Assembly: GCA_905233835.1 (NCBI GenBank) | Contig: CAJOGB010000003.1 | Span: 1 to 36,120 of the forward strand | DNA from: an uncultured Lachnospiraceae bacterium | GTDB taxonomy: Bacteria; Bacillota; Clostridia; Lachnospirales; Lachnospiraceae | DNA length: 36,120 bases | Direction: 5' to 3' | Shown here: in pieces, positions 8,378 to 19,195 of the stretch | Layout: each line of letters opens with the position of its first letter | How positions within the stretch are numbered: the first letter of the stretch is position 1 | The notes under the pieces: model-generated | Database searches by the model: none | The model's input: the letters and a program-made list of their open reading frames with translations, nothing else | Told to the model about the DNA's origin: nothing | Program-made: the position numbers and the translations under genes

Positions 8378-10159
8378 ATGAGAGAAAGAGTAAAAAACGG
8401 CTTAGGAACAAGCCTTGACTTCATCCGGATGATTCCGGAGATTTTAATTTATCAAGTAATTACAAAGCTTTTGCTTTTTGTTATCGTTACACTGTTAAAG
8501 CAAAATGCACTGCTGTTTTTGTATCGTGCGGGAAGAAGCGCGTTTACCAGCGGAGACTTGCCCTATTTGTTTAAGACCAAATACGGGTGGCTTATAGCCG
8601 GAGTGGGTCTTTTGGCACTGTTTATCTATACCGTGTTTGATATCAATGCCATGTTTCTTTTGGCGGACAGTGTACTTAATGAAAAGAAAAAGAGTTGGTG
8701 GATTATATTAAAGGAAGCCTTTATTTCTTTAAAGTATTTTACCCATCCACAGGGGCTGTTTGTGACCCTTTATTTATCCTTTTTGGGACCCCTTATTGGA
8801 ACGGCGGTGGGATTTTCCTTTATGATTGGATTTTCGGCACCGAACTTTGTTTTAAGATATATTTCCACCAATCCGTGGCTTCGGGTGCTGGTACTTTTGG
8901 GAGTCCTTTTGTATTTGGCGGTTGCGTTTATTTATATCTTTACGATTCTAAATGTAATCTTTAAAGAGGAAAAAATAAATATCGCCATGAAATCCTCTCG
9001 CAAAGCGGTGGCGGAAAATTGGACAAACTATGCATGGAACCTGCTTATGTTTTTCGTTAAGGCAGCAGTATTTGCAGTGGGTTTATTTGTCGTGTTTTAT
9101 TTTTTGCCCATTCTGTTTATAAATGTGCTTCCGATGCCGGTGGCATTTGCCAGGGGATGGAAAATCTTTTTTTCTATGATATTTACGGTGGGCAGTTTCT
9201 TGTTTATGCTTCTTTTTTGTCCGTTTTTGGCCATTCGAATCACCATGCTGTATCGGAATCAGCCCACCATACCGACGACGGAGGAGAGCAGCCGCGCTCA
9301 ATTGTCAAAACTATGGAAGCGATTTTTTGCGACGTCTTTGGCAGCGACCCTTGCCTTCAGTGTTTTCGGAGGAATTTTCTTTGATGAAATCTTCCCGATT
9401 TCCAACGAGACGGAAATTGTAGCTCATCGTGCCGGCGGAAATTTAAGTATTGAAAATTCCTTGTCCGGATTAAAAAAATCCATCGCAAATAACGTATCGG
9501 TGGCGGAGGTGGATATCCAGAGGACAAAGGACGGAACCTATATTATTTGTCATGACGCCGATTTGAAAAAGACCACGGGAAAAGCCGGAAATCCCACGGA
9601 GTTAACATACGCCCAAATACAAAACTATCGATTGAAAAACAGACAGCGCCCTTGGGAAGAAGGAGAGCGAATTCCCACATTGGAAGAGATGCTTGATGAG
9701 GCAAAGGGAAATATTAAACTCTTTTTGGAGTTGAAGGGAGAAAGCGCCGATCCCCAAATGGTTCATGAAGTATATGCGATGTTAAAAGAGCGGGATATGA
9801 TTTCGGATTGTACCGTCATTTGTTTTAATTATGAAATGATTGAATATATCGAGCGGGAACATCCGGATATGGAAACCGGTTATTTGGTATACTTCTCCTT
9901 CGGAAACTTGGAGGAATTAAACTGTGATACCTATATGGTGGAAACCGAGTGCTTGAGTGCCGGCGAGATCAACCGTATTCACGCAGCCGGGAAAAAGGTG
10001 GCGGTTTGGACCGTAAATACCACATCGGAATTAAACCGGTGGTTGCTTACGGATGTGGACTATGTGGTGACGGATGAAGTTTTGGCGGCACGCTTATTGA
10101 AAAAGTATATTTATAACGGAGCGGATGAGGAGCGTATTCTTCAGAAGCTTGTGATGTAG
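8378..10159 (+). CDS. Membrane-domain glycerophosphodiester phosphodiesterase (GDPD)
   Basis: N-terminal multi-TM region, then a catalytic-type GDPD domain: AHRAGGNLSIENS, EVDIQRTKDGTYIICHDADL, LFLELKG. AGGAG upstream; TATAAT at 8351-8356. Confidence 0.92.
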   Translation: MRERVKNGLGTSLDFIRMIPEILIYQVITKLLLFVIVTLLKQNALLFLYRAGRSAFTSGDLPYLFKTKYGWLIAGVGLLALFIYTVFDINAMFLLADSVLNEKKKSWWIILKEAFISLKYFTHPQGLFVTLYLSFLGPLIGTAVGFSFMIGFSAPNFVLRYISTNPWLRVLVLLGVLLYLAVAFIYIFTILNVIFKEEKINIAMKSSRKAVAENWTNYAWNLLMFFVKAAVFAVGLFVVFYFLPILFINVLPMPVAFARGWKIFFSMIFTVGSFLFMLLFCPFLAIRITMLYRNQPTIPTTEESSRAQLSKLWKRFFATSLAATLAFSVFGGIFFDEIFPISNETEIVAHRAGGNLSIENSLSGLKKSIANNVSVAEVDIQRTKDGTYIICHDADLKKTTGKAGNPTELTYAQIQNYRLKNRQRPWEEGERIPTLEEMLDEAKGNIKLFLELKGESADPQMVHEVYAMLKERDMISDCTVICFNYEMIEYIEREHPDMETGYLVYFSFGNLEELNCDTYMVETECLSAGEINRIHAAGKKVAVWTVNTTSELNRWLLTDVDYVVTDEVLAARLLKKYIYNGADEERILQKLVM

Positions 10160-13453: not shown

Positions 13454-14209
13454 TTATGCAATGGCCCATTCTTTTTCACTTTCAGGGATGCGGATTACTT
13501 CCCCTGCCATGCCCAAGCGTTCCGCCAACAGGGTTTCGTATCCGTTTCCGTACTTGGAAAAAGATACCTGGCGGATATCTAATTCTTCCAAAATCGCCAC
13601 TAATTTTAAATCCATGGCTTCTGCGATTTTTAGTTCCATCAAGTACTGATCTTTTTCCAAAAGATCTTTTCCTTCGTTTCCGTATTTCAAATCCAAATGA
13701 TTGATTCTCCACCGAATGTTTTGATCGAAGGTGATGCGTAGTTCCGGGTCGATGGTTCCGACCATTGCGATGCGATCATAGGAAATCGCCATGGCCGGTC
13801 GAAGTCCCGGATAGCATTTTTTAAAATAATCTATCTCCGCGGAAATCTGGGAGGATTTTTCCAACGGAATATTTTCATATAAATAATCTTTTGATTCTTT
13901 ATATGGAGCGGAAATTCTTCGCTTATATACAATTCCTTTATATTTCTTTTTTATCTCAATAAAGGAAGGACTCTCGTCTGTGGGAATCCCGTAGGAACGA
14001 AGACGAAGTTTTTCTTTGTAAACCGGTTTTTCCAAGGAACGGCGAATGAGTTCAAAGTCCGGCGTGTCAAAATAGATATTTAAAATGGAGGTTTTCCCGT
14101 AGTCATCTATTTTTGCCATATCTTTGATTCTTTCCATGAAACCAAGATATTGTTCTTTATTTAACAGGTATTTTAGCTCTTTTCTTTTAAAGGTATATTT
14201 GTTTGCCAT
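13454..14209 (-). CDS. VTC domain protein (candidate polyphosphate polymerase)
   Basis: FKRKELKYLLNKEQY, IYFDTPDFELIRRSLEKPVYKEKLRLRSYG, FIEIKKKYKGIVYKRR, ISYDRIAM. Confidence 0.88.
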   Translation of the reverse strand: MANKYTFKRKELKYLLNKEQYLGFMERIKDMAKIDDYGKTSILNIYFDTPDFELIRRSLEKPVYKEKLRLRSYGIPTDESPSFIEIKKKYKGIVYKRRISAPYKESKDYLYENIPLEKSSQISAEIDYFKKCYPGLRPAMAISYDRIAMVGTIDPELRITFDQNIRWRINHLDLKYGNEGKDLLEKDQYLMELKIAEAMDLKLVAILEELDIRQVSFSKYGNGYETLLAERLGMAGEVIRIPESEKEWAIA

Positions 14210-14283
14210 AATGGTTCTCCTTTTTCTTTACGGGTACATCATATATGCCAAACCTTAAACTATCCTTAAAAAGAAATAAAAAA

Positions 14284-14304
14284 GTGGGCTTAGTTAAAGC
14301 CCAC
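14284..14304 (-). terminator. Terminator overlapping the end of the GT2 gene
   Basis: GTGGGCTT-AGTTA-AAGCCCAC; on the minus strand it includes the TAA stop (14290-14292) and is followed by a T-run. Confidence 0.75.
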
Positions 14305-15306
14305 AAGTTTTTGTGATATTTTATAACCCATAACGGAAAGTCTTCTTCCGAATTTGCCCGGAAGATTCATGGATCCGCCTAGGATTCCGTAGCGCAAATG
14401 TTTATAGGTGCGCTCGTCTTTTTTCTTAATGTATTTCCAGAGTTTTTTCACCTTTGCGATATTCTCCGGATTCTTTGAAACATAGCCGATGGCAGAAGAA
14501 ACAACGGTAATCATTTCCAAATAGGAAAGCATGTACTCACGTAAATGTTTTTCTTCAATGGACCATAAATCGTAAGCGTCCACCATCAAATAGTTTACCC
14601 GAAGCTGCTGATCGATACGCTTAATCATGGTAGCTTCCGCTACGGACTGGCCCTCGCGACCGATGTAATAACGATAGAAATCCACATCCAGATAGTAAAT
14701 GGTTTTTACGTAAGGAAGGGGAACGAAAACAAAAAGGTTATCTACATAAAAGGTGTGCTTTGGAAGCTCCAACTTACATTCCCGAAGCATCGCGGTACGA
14801 TAGGTTACGGAGTGCATCAAAATGGAAAAACCTTTGATGTTTCGTTTCATGCCGTCCCAACCGATGATTTCCTTTTGCGGGAAAAGCAATCGATACTGCA
14901 TGTGACGATGCTGGTTGGTGGAAGGCTTTTCGTACACATAGTTTGTTAAAAGCATATCCACCGGGGTGCCTGCGTTTACAAGATTTCTTAAGGTGTCCAA
15001 AACCTGCATGTAAGCGTCTTTGTCTACCCAGTCATCGGAATCCACAACTTTATAATATAATCCGGTTGCATTACGAAGACCGGTGTTTACCGCTTCTCCG
15101 TGACCGCCGTTTTCCTGATGTACGGCTTTGCAAATGGTTGGATATTTTTTTGCATATGCGTCTGCGATCTCTGCGGTTTTGTCGGTGGATCCGTCATCAA
15201 CGATGATGATTTCCACATCTTCGCCACCGATTAAAAGAGATTCGATGCATTTTCCCATGTACGCGTAGGAATTGTAGCATGGGATGCCAAAACTGATAAG
15301 TTTCAT
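14290..15306 (-). CDS. Glycosyltransferase family 2
   Basis: ISFGIPCYNSYAYMGKCIESLL, EIIIVDDGSTDKTAEIAD, VVDSDDWVDKDAY. Confidence 0.92.
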   Translation of the reverse strand: MKLISFGIPCYNSYAYMGKCIESLLIGGEDVEIIIVDDGSTDKTAEIADAYAKKYPTICKAVHQENGGHGEAVNTGLRNATGLYYKVVDSDDWVDKDAYMQVLDTLRNLVNAGTPVDMLLTNYVYEKPSTNQHRHMQYRLLFPQKEIIGWDGMKRNIKGFSILMHSVTYRTAMLRECKLELPKHTFYVDNLFVFVPLPYVKTIYYLDVDFYRYYIGREGQSVAEATMIKRIDQQLRVNYLMVDAYDLWSIEEKHLREYMLSYLEMITVVSSAIGYVSKNPENIAKVKKLWKYIKKKDERTYKHLRYGILGGSMNLPGKFGRRLSVMGYKISQKLVGFN

Positions 15307-15361
15307 ATTTTACTCCTAATAAATAATCCACTAATGATTATATCAATTATTTGGGGTGTGT

Positions 15362-16459
15362 CTACTTTTGATTCAAAAATCCGGACTTCCCCAGTTCGAT
15401 TTGGGCGATGTTGGCGTAGGTTTCGAATGCAGAAGGTATTGCGTATTCTTTTTGAATCTTTTCTTTGGTTACAAGAATGCTTTCCGGATCGATGGTGGCA
15501 TCGGAAAGATCTGCCACACGTACAAGATATCCTTTCATACGCCATTCTACGTGGGAAAAGATATGCTTTGCGTCCGGTAGGGCTTCAATCAAAACGGGAT
15601 CTAACCCTTTTTCCCTGGCAAAAGAAACCACATCCTTTCGGTTAAGATGACCCTCTGCTCCCGGGAATTCATATAAGCCAGCAAGAAGCCCTTTGCTCGG
15701 ACGTTTTTGAATTATAATATCCTTTCCGTCCATAATCAAAAAGACGGTTCGCTCTTCGATTCGTCGCTTTGCAGGTTTTGATTTTACGGGATATATATCG
15801 TAGGTTTTGTGTTTGTGAGTAAGGCAATGTGCCTTCCAGGGGCATGAGTCACACAGGGGCTGTCCGTTTGGCACACAAATGCAGGCTCCGATTTCCATAA
15901 GTGCCTGGTTAAAATCTCCCGATGCGTCTTTTGGTATAATGGTGGAGAGTAAATCCTGTACAGCTTTTTTTACAGATTCTTTTTTGATATCGGAGTCGTC
16001 CTCTGCCACGCGACAAAGGATGCGAAGCACATTTCCGTCCACAGCCGGATGAGGCAGGCCAAAGGCGATGGATGAAATCGCGCCTGCGGTGTAATTTCCG
16101 ATGCCGGGAAGAGAAAGGATTTCTTCGTAGGATTTTGGAAAGCCTCCCTCGTAGTTTTCAACCATTACTTTTGCAGCGCGTTGCATATTTCGCACTCGAT
16201 TATAGTAACCGAGACCCTCCCAGAGTTTTAAAAGTTCATCCTCCGGGCATGAAGCCAAATCTAAGATGGTGGGAAGTCGATGTAAAAATCGTTCGTAGTA
16301 TCCCTTTACGGCTTCCACTCTTGTCTGCTGCAACATGATTTCGGACACCCAAATGTGATAGGGATTTTTATCTTTTCGCCAAGGCAAATCTCTTTTATTT
16401 TTTTTATACCAACCCAAGGCGGGTGATACCAATTTTTCCAAATTAAAATTATCTAACAT
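15362..16459 (-). CDS. mutY: A/G-specific adenine glycosylase
   Basis: RDLPWRKDKNPYHIWVSEIMLQQTRVEAV, GIGNYTAGAISSIAFG, CxxxxxxCxxCPW...C iron-sulfur ligands, C-terminal NUDIX-like domain. ATG 16459 preferred to the tracked TTG at 16468. Confidence 0.95.
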   Translation of the reverse strand: MLDNFNLEKLVSPALGWYKKNKRDLPWRKDKNPYHIWVSEIMLQQTRVEAVKGYYERFLHRLPTILDLASCPEDELLKLWEGLGYYNRVRNMQRAAKVMVENYEGGFPKSYEEILSLPGIGNYTAGAISSIAFGLPHPAVDGNVLRILCRVAEDDSDIKKESVKKAVQDLLSTIIPKDASGDFNQALMEIGACICVPNGQPLCDSCPWKAHCLTHKHKTYDIYPVKSKPAKRRIEERTVFLIMDGKDIIIQKRPSKGLLAGLYEFPGAEGHLNRKDVVSFAREKGLDPVLIEALPDAKHIFSHVEWRMKGYLVRVADLSDATIDPESILVTKEKIQKEYAIPSAFETYANIAQIELGKSGFLNQK

Positions 16460-16498
16460 ACCAAGCAATTATAACATAAAAAAGATGCGATCCCGGAT

Positions 16499-16567: not shown

Positions 16568-19195
16568 ATGCATTTTGGTGTGGTGTTTTTATATTATTTG
16601 CAGGCGCTTCGATTGTCCTGCGGAAGCATTTTTGACGACTTCATGCTGTTTGTTACGGATACGGCGGGAGGAACATTTTCTTTTTTGGTGCTTGCTTTAT
16701 TCTATTGGTGTTTGAATAAAGAATTGGGCAGTGCCATTCTTTTAAATCTTTCCTTTGGTTCCAATGTCAATTATTTGTTGAAAAATCGATTTAAGATTCC
16801 GAGACCTTGGCATCGGGATCCAAGAATCGTTCCGGTATCCGCGGCCTTGAAGGATGCATCCGGCTATTCCTTGCCCAGTGGTCATGTGGCACGATCAGTG
16901 GCTACCTATGGTGTAATCGCTTCTGATTTTTCAAAGCGCGGTGAAAAAAAGGAACATACCCTTTGGCAGACGCTCGGCACCTTTTTATGGGTGTGGGTTT
17001 TTCTTATCATGTTTTCCCGCATGTATTTGGGAGTACATACGCCTCTTGACGTATTGGTGGCCCTCGGCCTCGGCCTTCTGTGGACGAAGGTGTTTTCTGT
17101 TGTGCAACGGGTGATTAAGGAAGAGGTTGTTTTAATCTTTGCTGCATTAATAGCGGTTTATTCTATTTGCCGCTACGGTTTAAATGCAAATGCGGGTGTG
17201 ATGATCGGCCTTGTGTTCGGATGGTACGCGGAGCAAAGATGGATCGGATTTAAAACCGAGGGAGAACCTGCAAGAAAGGTGCTTCGGTTTTTAATCGGCG
17301 GTGGATCCTTGGTTTTGCTTTTAACCCTGCTTCCCCAGTTTATAACCGTATTTACTTTGGAGCGTTATGCAAACTTTGTGACCTATTTGGTTGCGGGTTT
17401 GTATGTAACGGTTATTTTCCCCACATGTTTTTCTTTGGTGCAAAAAAGAAAAGTTTCTTTGCAACGCATGCTGGTTGTAAATACTTCTTTTGTGTTGGCG
17501 CTTGTTTTGGTTTTGGGATCTTTGGGATTTTACTGGACCAGAAACCCCAGACTTCTGGCAGAGGAAGATGCGGATCGTATTATTGCTGCCGCAAATGTAA
17601 CCAGTGAGGAAACCGCTACGGGAGATATCAATACGGTGGATATCAAAGAAAATGCCATGACCATCGTGGCGGACGGAGGATATGCCGCCAGATATCCGGC
17701 AAACTCTCTGGCCGCATTTAAAAACGCTATGGAAATGGGCGCTGATTCTTTGCGCTGTGATGTACAGGTCTCCTCCGACGGTGTGTTGGTTTTATATAAA
17801 ATGCCAACCTTTTTAAATGAAGATGAAGAAACCTGTCGTATCGGACAGTTTACCTATGACGAACTTCGCAGAATGTCTTTTGACGATGCGCACTTAATAA
17901 GCATGGAACAGTTTTGGAAACTGGTGTCCGAAACCGACTTGGAGATTTATGTAAATATCGTGGATGTGGGAAATGCCCAGAGAGAAACGCTCATTCAAAA
18001 TGTTTACGCCGGACTGGATGCATTGGAAATGACAAAGCGGGTTACCTGCATGTCTTCAAATTACAGTTATTTGGAATCCATTCGCGCATTGGACGAAGAT
18101 CTTTCTTTGATGTATGAGACCTCCAGCGGAACTGTGGATATTTTAGAAAAATATCCTTCGGATGCTTACAGTATTTCCGTGGATAATTTAAGCAGCGAAT
18201 TGGTTTCCGCCATTCAGGAAAGCGGAGCAAAAGTATATGCGTATGACGTGCAAAATCCAACCCAGCTTTTGAATGTATATCGCTTCGGAACAGACGGTGT
18301 ATTTTCCGAAAACTACGGCTTGGCCAGCGTGGTATCTCACCCGGAATATTCATTTCTTTGCGACCGATTCGAAGCATCTTATGCCATGCCCGGATTATAC
18401 GGATACTACGTTCCGAAGATGTGTGAGGATATGATTTGTCAGGGAATGACACGAACCCCTACAAACATTATCGTATCCGCATACAGTTATTCCGGAGATT
18501 ACAATAGCATCTTGTATGTAATGGACTTGGACGGAAATCTCATGAAGATCATTGATTTGGGATTCCAGTCTCATGTGGGTGGAATTGCCTACGATGAAGC
18601 CCATGATGTGCTGTGGATTACGGGACGTCTCGGATATGTATATGCCTTGGATTGGAGCAAGCTTCGTGAAAAGATAGAACAAGAGGATCCCTATAACATT
18701 ATTTACCGTCACGACGGAAGTTATCTTGCTTACTTTGATGCGGGCCTGATTAACCACAAAGGTATCAAGGTGGCATCTTTCTTAACCATGTTTGAAGGAA
18801 AACTCTATGTGGGAAGTTACGTAAACGGCGGAAACGGAATTCTAAACGGGTATGAAATCGATGATGACTGCCTGGTTACTTTGGATTCGTCGGTAGAAAT
18901 TCCTCAACGTATTCAGGGCTTATGCTTCTATCGCGATGTGGCAACGAATACGGTTTACATGTTAATGAGCCAAAGTTACTCCGTGTTTGACAGTCAGCTC
19001 CTTCGATTTGAATACCGTGATACCACGAAAAAATACAAATACGCTTCGGATTATTGGAGACTTCCGGAGGGTGCGGAACAGATCGTGATGACGACGCGTG
19101 GGCTCTACCTTTTATTTGAATCTTCTGCGAAGAAATATCGCAGTACCGCACGATTGGTAAACGATCAGATCTTTGTAATTCGAATGAACGAGTAG
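16568..19195 (+). CDS. PAP2 phosphatase fused to a degenerate GDPD-like domain and a C-terminal beta-propeller-like domain
   Basis: PAP2 motifs KNRFKIPRP, PSGH and SRMYLGVHTPLD. GDPD-like segment VADGGYAARYPANSLAAFKNAMEMGADSLRCDVQVSSDGVLVLYKMP lacks the HR and HD catalytic residues. The C-terminus has repeat-like segments (GGIAYDEAHDVLWITGRLGYVYALDW). Start ATG 16568 follows GGGGG. Confidence 0.82.
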   Translation: MHFGVVFLYYLQALRLSCGSIFDDFMLFVTDTAGGTFSFLVLALFYWCLNKELGSAILLNLSFGSNVNYLLKNRFKIPRPWHRDPRIVPVSAALKDASGYSLPSGHVARSVATYGVIASDFSKRGEKKEHTLWQTLGTFLWVWVFLIMFSRMYLGVHTPLDVLVALGLGLLWTKVFSVVQRVIKEEVVLIFAALIAVYSICRYGLNANAGVMIGLVFGWYAEQRWIGFKTEGEPARKVLRFLIGGGSLVLLLTLLPQFITVFTLERYANFVTYLVAGLYVTVIFPTCFSLVQKRKVSLQRMLVVNTSFVLALVLVLGSLGFYWTRNPRLLAEEDADRIIAAANVTSEETATGDINTVDIKENAMTIVADGGYAARYPANSLAAFKNAMEMGADSLRCDVQVSSDGVLVLYKMPTFLNEDEETCRIGQFTYDELRRMSFDDAHLISMEQFWKLVSETDLEIYVNIVDVGNAQRETLIQNVYAGLDALEMTKRVTCMSSNYSYLESIRALDEDLSLMYETSSGTVDILEKYPSDAYSISVDNLSSELVSAIQESGAKVYAYDVQNPTQLLNVYRFGTDGVFSENYGLASVVSHPEYSFLCDRFEASYAMPGLYGYYVPKMCEDMICQGMTRTPTNIIVSAYSYSGDYNSILYVMDLDGNLMKIIDLGFQSHVGGIAYDEAHDVLWITGRLGYVYALDWSKLREKIEQEDPYNIIYRHDGSYLAYFDAGLINHKGIKVASFLTMFEGKLYVGSYVNGGNGILNGYEIDDDCLVTLDSSVEIPQRIQGLCFYRDVATNTVYMLMSQSYSVFDSQLLRFEYRDTTKKYKYASDYWRLPEGAEQIVMTTRGLYLLFESSAKKYRSTARLVNDQIFVIRMNE

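Follow-up and report, generated by a model that had tools for sequence, protein, structure and literature searches.

The window, the whole 36,120-nt stretch of Lachnospiraceae DNA that was analysed, contains an open frame at positions 16568 to 19195 of the + strand, which translates into 875 amino acids. The longest ORF call begins at TTG 16499; because homologues begin at the position of ATG 16568, with which their starts align, this ATG was taken as the start. The features of the gene, together with a second GDPD gene used for comparison, are as follows.

16568 to 19195, + strand: whole gene, PAP2, pseudo-GDPD, and a predicted five-bladed propeller (translation; homologues with the same domain order)
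16568 to 17539, + strand: membrane part, residues 1 to 324, consisting of the PAP2 core and additional C-terminal helices (AlphaFold2 helices; positive-inside pattern)
16742 to 17104, + strand: PAP2 phosphatase domain, residues 59 to 179, motifs intact (PF01569, E 3e-18; invariant motifs)
17537 to 17647, + strand: linker, residues 324 to 360 (AlphaFold2 pLDDT <50 for residues 324 to 356)
17651 to 18322, + strand: pseudo-GDPD TIM barrel, residues 362 to 585 (PF03009, E 2e-18; AlphaFold2 barrel; Foldseek match 2pz0)
17672 to 17677, + strand: catalytic HR position, here Asp369-Gly370 (alignment with active homologues)
17699 to 17701, + strand: Glu of EN(T/S), here Ala378 (alignment)
17753 to 17761, + strand: metal-binding ExD, here Arg396-Cys-Asp398 (alignment)
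17798 to 17803, + strand: catalytic HD, here Lys411-Met412 (alignment)
17954 to 17962, + strand: ExK (third metal ligand and Lys), here Asn463-Ile-Val465 (alignment)
18242 to 18244, + strand: conserved Trp on strand 7, here Tyr559 (alignment)
18380 to 19192, + strand: beta-propeller, residues 605 to 875, read as five blades (AlphaFold2 model of the tail alone; Foldseek)
8378 to 10159, + strand: comparison gene, a membrane GDPD with intact catalytic residues (PF03009, E 6e-32; PF10110, E 1e-14)

A Pfam search of the 875-residue protein placed PAP2 at residues 59 to 179 (E 3e-18) and GDPD at residues 371 to 582 (E 2e-18) and assigned no family to the C-terminal tail. The full-length AlphaFold2 model, built with 50 aligned homologues (mean pLDDT, 90.9), consists of a helix bundle to residue 324, a disordered linker (324 to 356), an eight-stranded TIM barrel (365 to 582), and an all-beta tail. 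All three parts of the fusion proposed by an earlier, sequence-only reading of this DNA (PAP2, GDPD-type barrel, and propeller) appear in the model; the relative placement of the domains is not reliable, because the pTM is only 0.62. A promoter scan gave a count no higher than the chance expectation.

The PAP2 part carries the complete superfamily signature, KxxxxxxRP (K72, R79, and P80), PSGH (residues 103 to 106), and SRxxxxxHxxxD (S150, R151, H157, and D161). These motifs are invariant across six aligned fusions, and with the Pfam match (E 3e-18) they uphold the earlier statement that this part is intact. In the positive-inside analysis, the loops at residues 120 to 133, 180 to 188, 224 to 239, and 290 to 301 were positively charged. 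Since the four loops are read as lying inside, PSGH, H157, and all residues after 324 are predicted to face outside, although the PAP2-motif loop also carries positive charge. The active site of PAP2 membrane enzymes faces outward, in agreement with this predicted topology.

The middle domain has the GDPD fold, as indicated by the Pfam match (E 2e-18), the eight modelled strands of the barrel, and a Foldseek match to 2pz0 (TM-score, 0.84 by target length). Its catalytic signature is lost. Alignment with active homologues showed nine replacements (H369D, R370G, E378A, E396R, H411K, D412M, E463N, K465V, and W559Y). Both catalytic histidines (HR and HD) are missing, with D369 and K411 in their places, and among the acidic metal ligands of ExD and ExK, R396 and N463 are found and D398 is the only metal-site residue remaining. 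The losses that the sequence-only reading had listed at HR, EN(T/S), ExD, and HD were all borne out; its list was incomplete, having missed E463N, K465V, and W559Y. The paralogue at 8378 to 10159 does keep HR, EN, ExD, and HD, as that reading had said.

In Staphylococcus aureus LpgD, the E78A and H93A variants were deficient in LPG hydrolysis and H51A activity was reduced (PMC10404611); by our alignment, these residues would correspond to window E396, H411, and H369. Because the catalytic residues are lost and LpgD mutants at the equivalent sites are impaired, it is very unlikely that the window barrel performs the canonical GDPD reaction. By analogy with AvrBs2, a GDPD-derived synthetase which shows that the fold can change its reaction, the altered barrel might instead keep a different catalytic activity, and its mouth does carry fixed new polar residues (D369, R396, D398, N463, Y559, and D560). 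AvrBs2, however, needs the canonical GDE residues H274, E304, D306, and H319 (PMC12807533), whereas both histidines and two of the three acidic metal ligands are gone from the window barrel, and we regard a changed chemistry as highly improbable.

The tail was folded alone and gave an all-beta model (pLDDT, 92; pTM, 0.91) with a circular array of four-stranded blades, predicted from the strand list to number five. Its best Foldseek matches were beta-propellers (probability, 1.00), which agrees with the suggestion that the last ∼300 residues look like blades; a sequence search of the tail against the PDB returned nothing better than weak matches to DUF4374 (E 0.34). When dead members are compared with active ones, the tail is the most conserved part of the fusion (0.49, versus 0.33 for the GDPD domain). 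The tail propeller occurs in 52 of 397 family genomes, or approximately one in eight. Elsewhere it often makes up proteins of 380 to 400 residues that have a hydrophobic segment at the N terminus, or it is combined with fn3, leucine-rich (LRR_5), List_Bact, or M15 peptidase domains (L039 to L061 and L203 to L214), and these domain contexts suggest that the propeller may be a cell-surface module. The tail-only proteins matched DUF6454 best among known families (E 7.5e-6) and have no Pfam family of their own. Their genes showed no conserved neighbours beyond the genes common to closely related loci. In three such related loci, a GDSL/SGNH-like hydrolase gene, named from its start sequence only, adjoins the tail-only gene (L204:5815-6417, L209:6035-6634, and L212:8718-9317).

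In the draw of 397 family genomes, the PAP2-GDPD-propeller architecture was present in five genomes besides the window's own, and two further three-domain genes were found outside the draw, in G427 (same genus as one member) and in L084 (a Lachnospiraceae metagenome-assembled genome [MAG]). The seven other three-domain genes, which come from independent genomes, were read through, and the order of their domains is unchanged; the fusion represents a genuine, if rare, gene family. The copy of Eubacterium plexicaudatum ASF492 is split into two frames (L121:10129-12602), by either a mutation or an assembly error. L083 and L085 encode PAP2-GDPD proteins without the tail, and the genes of L086 and G392 run off their contigs and are incomplete. 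In addition, PAP2 is followed in two Oscillospiraceae MAG proteins (L098:8549-10498 and L105:3588-5489) by a GDPD-like C-terminal part of a very different kind, with its catalytic residues retained; these may have arisen by a separate fusion.

Among the homologues readable through the barrel, the GDPD signature is lost only in the window protein and those of G079 and G427, which both belong to another genus and encode proteins 64 to 65% identical to that of the window. The three proteins have identical replacements at positions 369, 370, 396, 463, 465, and 559 (H to D, R to G, E to R, E to N, K to V, and W to Y) and differ from each other at 378 and 411. They are monophyletic in the PAP2 tree (support, 100/100), and the simplest history would be a single loss of GDPD catalysis, to which the PAP2 tree by itself gives no date. 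The GDPD residues are kept in each of the eight remaining homologues that can be read through the barrel, six of them three-domain proteins, and incomplete L086 keeps the readable share. The idea that the architecture in general lacks GDPD catalysis was therefore rejected. The sequence-only reading had proposed a survey of the architecture and of whether the loss is conserved, and had held that homologues with retained catalytic residues would refute its interpretation; this applies by half, in that every more distant homologue retains them and the loss is fixed in one derived clade. A second family draw for more dead members returned mostly the same genomes and one further GDPD-only match.

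Since they are common to three species in two genera, the losses are beyond chance. A frameshift, chimera, or binning artefact might be suspected because the window genome is fragmented, with 82% completeness, and the seven other genomes of its genus did not yield the gene. Against this, the 64 to 65% identical protein with the same lost residues is encoded in two independent assemblies from another genus, and mutY, glycosyltransferase, and VTC genes are common to the window contig and its congeners. The independent homologues refute such an error, and we give it next to no credence.

The dead GDPD domain remains under purifying selection. NG86 omega for this domain was 0.15 (G000-G427) and 0.21 (G079-G427), and comparable pairs gave 0.15 for PAP2 and 0.09 for the tail; these values are rough, with dS near saturation and undefined for several pairs, and saturation left most pairs without a YN00 dN/dS. 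A pseudogene was rejected together with an artefact, on the basis of the independent homologues with the same losses, the lack of stops, and the omega of 0.15 to 0.21. Constraint has nevertheless been partly relaxed, because the GDPD:tail distance ratio is 2.46 in the dead clade, versus 1.10 in active homologues (catalytic columns excluded). The dead domain evolves faster than both the tail and the PAP2 part of the dead clade.

The divergence is unevenly distributed over the barrel. Within the dead clade, a thin basis of three sequences, two of them from one genus, identity was 0.76 at the barrel mouth versus 0.49 at the back (permutation p, 0.0001); in active homologues, the values were 0.71 and 0.42. 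The mouth was defined as the strand ends and the loops after them, independently of conservation, and excludes the long loop that follows strand 2. This loop, the former site of the second catalytic His, has diverged (identity, 0.43 within the dead clade). That diverged loop, and the fact that the dead domain is less well conserved than the active one when each is set against its PAP2 and tail, are what would be expected if the pseudo-GDPD were a degenerating relic or mere spacer, with only PAP2 and the propeller mattering. Against this stand the low omega with no stop in three genomes, a mouth conserved as strongly as in active enzymes, and identical new residues at six catalytic positions. 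We consider a relic rather unlikely: constraint kept on the mouth after the loss of chemistry favours binding over decay, and the pocket looks repurposed. The barrel that the sequence-only reading had assumed is supported by the AlphaFold2 and Foldseek results, and the loss of catalysis is fixed in a clade and is no sequencing error.

A LicD-family gene lies within ∼7 kb in five of the seven active loci with enough flank, directly upstream of the fusion in three (L082, L084, and L066). The fusions of L082, L084, L064, L066, and L121 have glucose-1-phosphate cytidylyltransferase-like genes nearby; CDP-glucose 4,6-dehydratase genes occur in L082, L064, and L066, and RfbH genes in L082 and L066. 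In G386, another PAP2 of this family, encoded two genes from the active fusion, is joined to an MdoB/LtaS-like phosphoglycerol transferase. A PAP2-MdoB/LtaS-like fusion gene at L066:14205-16628 (− strand) is flanked by LicD-family genes and lies close to an active PAP2-GDPD-propeller gene. These LicD and CDP-sugar neighbours fit surface phospho-polymers and point to surface phospho-glycan or glycerophospholipid metabolism in the active relatives.

The dead-clade genes are not adjacent to LicD or CDP-sugar genes. In G079, the gene follows dTDP-glucose-dehydratase-like, CapD-like, epimerase, and glycosyltransferase genes; in G427, it follows a glycosyltransferase-like gene; and in the window, it is divergent from mutY, a glycosyltransferase, and a VTC gene. 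Absence of LicD as a marker of the dead clade was rejected as not significant: no more than 129 of 200 family genomes have LicD, and the LicD-less genus is one lineage. LicD is also common enough that its presence as such does not discriminate. The mutY-glycosyltransferase-VTC block (window 13454 to 16468) is inverted relative to an enoyl-CoA hydratase gene when three congeners are taken for comparison, and the inverted block ends at the fusion gene. No full-length copy is present in the other seven genomes of the window's genus, which would fit gain as well as loss.

The protein might also work in lipid recycling together with a separate active GDPD of the cell. The window genome keeps the membrane GDPD at 8378 to 10159 and another GDPD gene on contig C16; either could generate a lipid phosphate that PAP2 would then dephosphorylate, and the pseudo-GDPD would serve to dock the substrate or the partner enzyme. 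Production of lysophosphatidic acid by a GDPD enzyme is established for S. aureus (PMC10404611). Genetic linkage is no closer than ∼6 kb, however, and such recycling seems to us distinctly unlikely.

The reading we prefer, at roughly even confidence, is an outward-facing PAP2 phosphatase joined to a propeller and to a pseudo-GDPD that binds rather than cuts. The protein would be an integral-membrane lipid-phosphate phosphatase with its active site outside and with the pseudo-GDPD and beta-propeller on a large ectodomain. Most likely, its ancestor combined two activities on the outward side of the membrane: GDPD would have cleaved a glycerophospho- or sugar-phospho-diester, be it a lysophospholipid, a glycerophospholipid, or a phospho-decorated glycan, and PAP2 would have removed the exposed phosphate. 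In the window clade, GDPD would have lost its general acid/base and metal ligands and been retained as a binding domain, whose rebuilt mouth may capture or position a phosphate-bearing headgroup near the PAP2 site, a putative coupling of the two domains. The propeller may contact the cell wall, a glycan, or a partner protein.

This reading is supported by the reality of the family, the modelled TIM barrel and propeller, the intact residues of the active homologues beside the fixed replacements of the dead clade, the monophyly of the clade, the conserved mouth, and the low omega, as well as by the positive-inside pattern, the LicD/CDP-sugar neighbours, the PAP2-MdoB/LtaS-like fusion, and the LpgD mutants. 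It is weakened by the small number of dead sequences (three), the partly relaxed GDPD, the pTM of 0.62, and the lack of LicD/CDP-sugar neighbours in the dead clade. The proposal that the dead domain is a sensor is compatible with these data: the predicted outside ectodomain and the conserved mouth fit a ligand-binding role, the mouth strengthening the idea. For a teichoic acid as possible target, the evidence comes solely from the gene neighbourhoods of the active homologues. More specifically, and only tentatively, the pseudo-GDPD could be a metal-free phosphate-headgroup receptor, in which Arg has replaced Glu at one metal-ligand site, and it could gate or target the attached PAP2. A single polypeptide would then sense a surface phospho-glycan or lysophospholipid and tune lipid-phosphate turnover. 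Live and dead GDPD within the same three-domain membrane protein offer a clean natural contrast for the role of a pseudo-GDPD. The analysis also exposes an uncharacterised PAP2-GDPD-propeller family, most of whose active members are tied to surface glycan clusters with LicD and CDP-sugar genes, and a propeller domain lacking its own Pfam entry.

A limited search of the open-access literature found no bacterial pseudo-GDPD. PgpB, YodM (5jki), and SepP have PAP2 motifs in common with the window protein, with weak sequence matches; to our knowledge, they have no ectodomain, unlike the window protein. Foldseek matched the barrel to the GDPD fold of Bacillus subtilis GlpQ (5t9b). GlpQ-type enzymes are soluble and active and are not known to carry PAP2 or a propeller, unlike the window protein. 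A GlpQ-type glycerophosphodiesterase is described as acting on teichoic acid (PMC7086022). LpgD, the lysophosphatidylglycerol phospholipase D of S. aureus, also carries a GDPD TIM barrel on a membrane helix; it is catalytic, whereas the window protein has Arg and Lys at the equivalents of E78 and H93 (PMC10404611). The tail has the propeller fold in common with the DUF6454, DUF4374, NHL, and glutaminyl cyclase beta-propellers, but profile or fold matches are weak, and it is placed in none of these families and has a conserved signature, QG...HxGG..AYD...QG...LEQ...FES. The protein of Parablautia intestinalis (L082, RAYQ01000015.1) has the same three domains in the same order, with ∼38% overall identity to the window protein; its GDPD residues are intact and its gene lies within a LicD and CDP-sugar cluster, whereas the window GDPD is dead.
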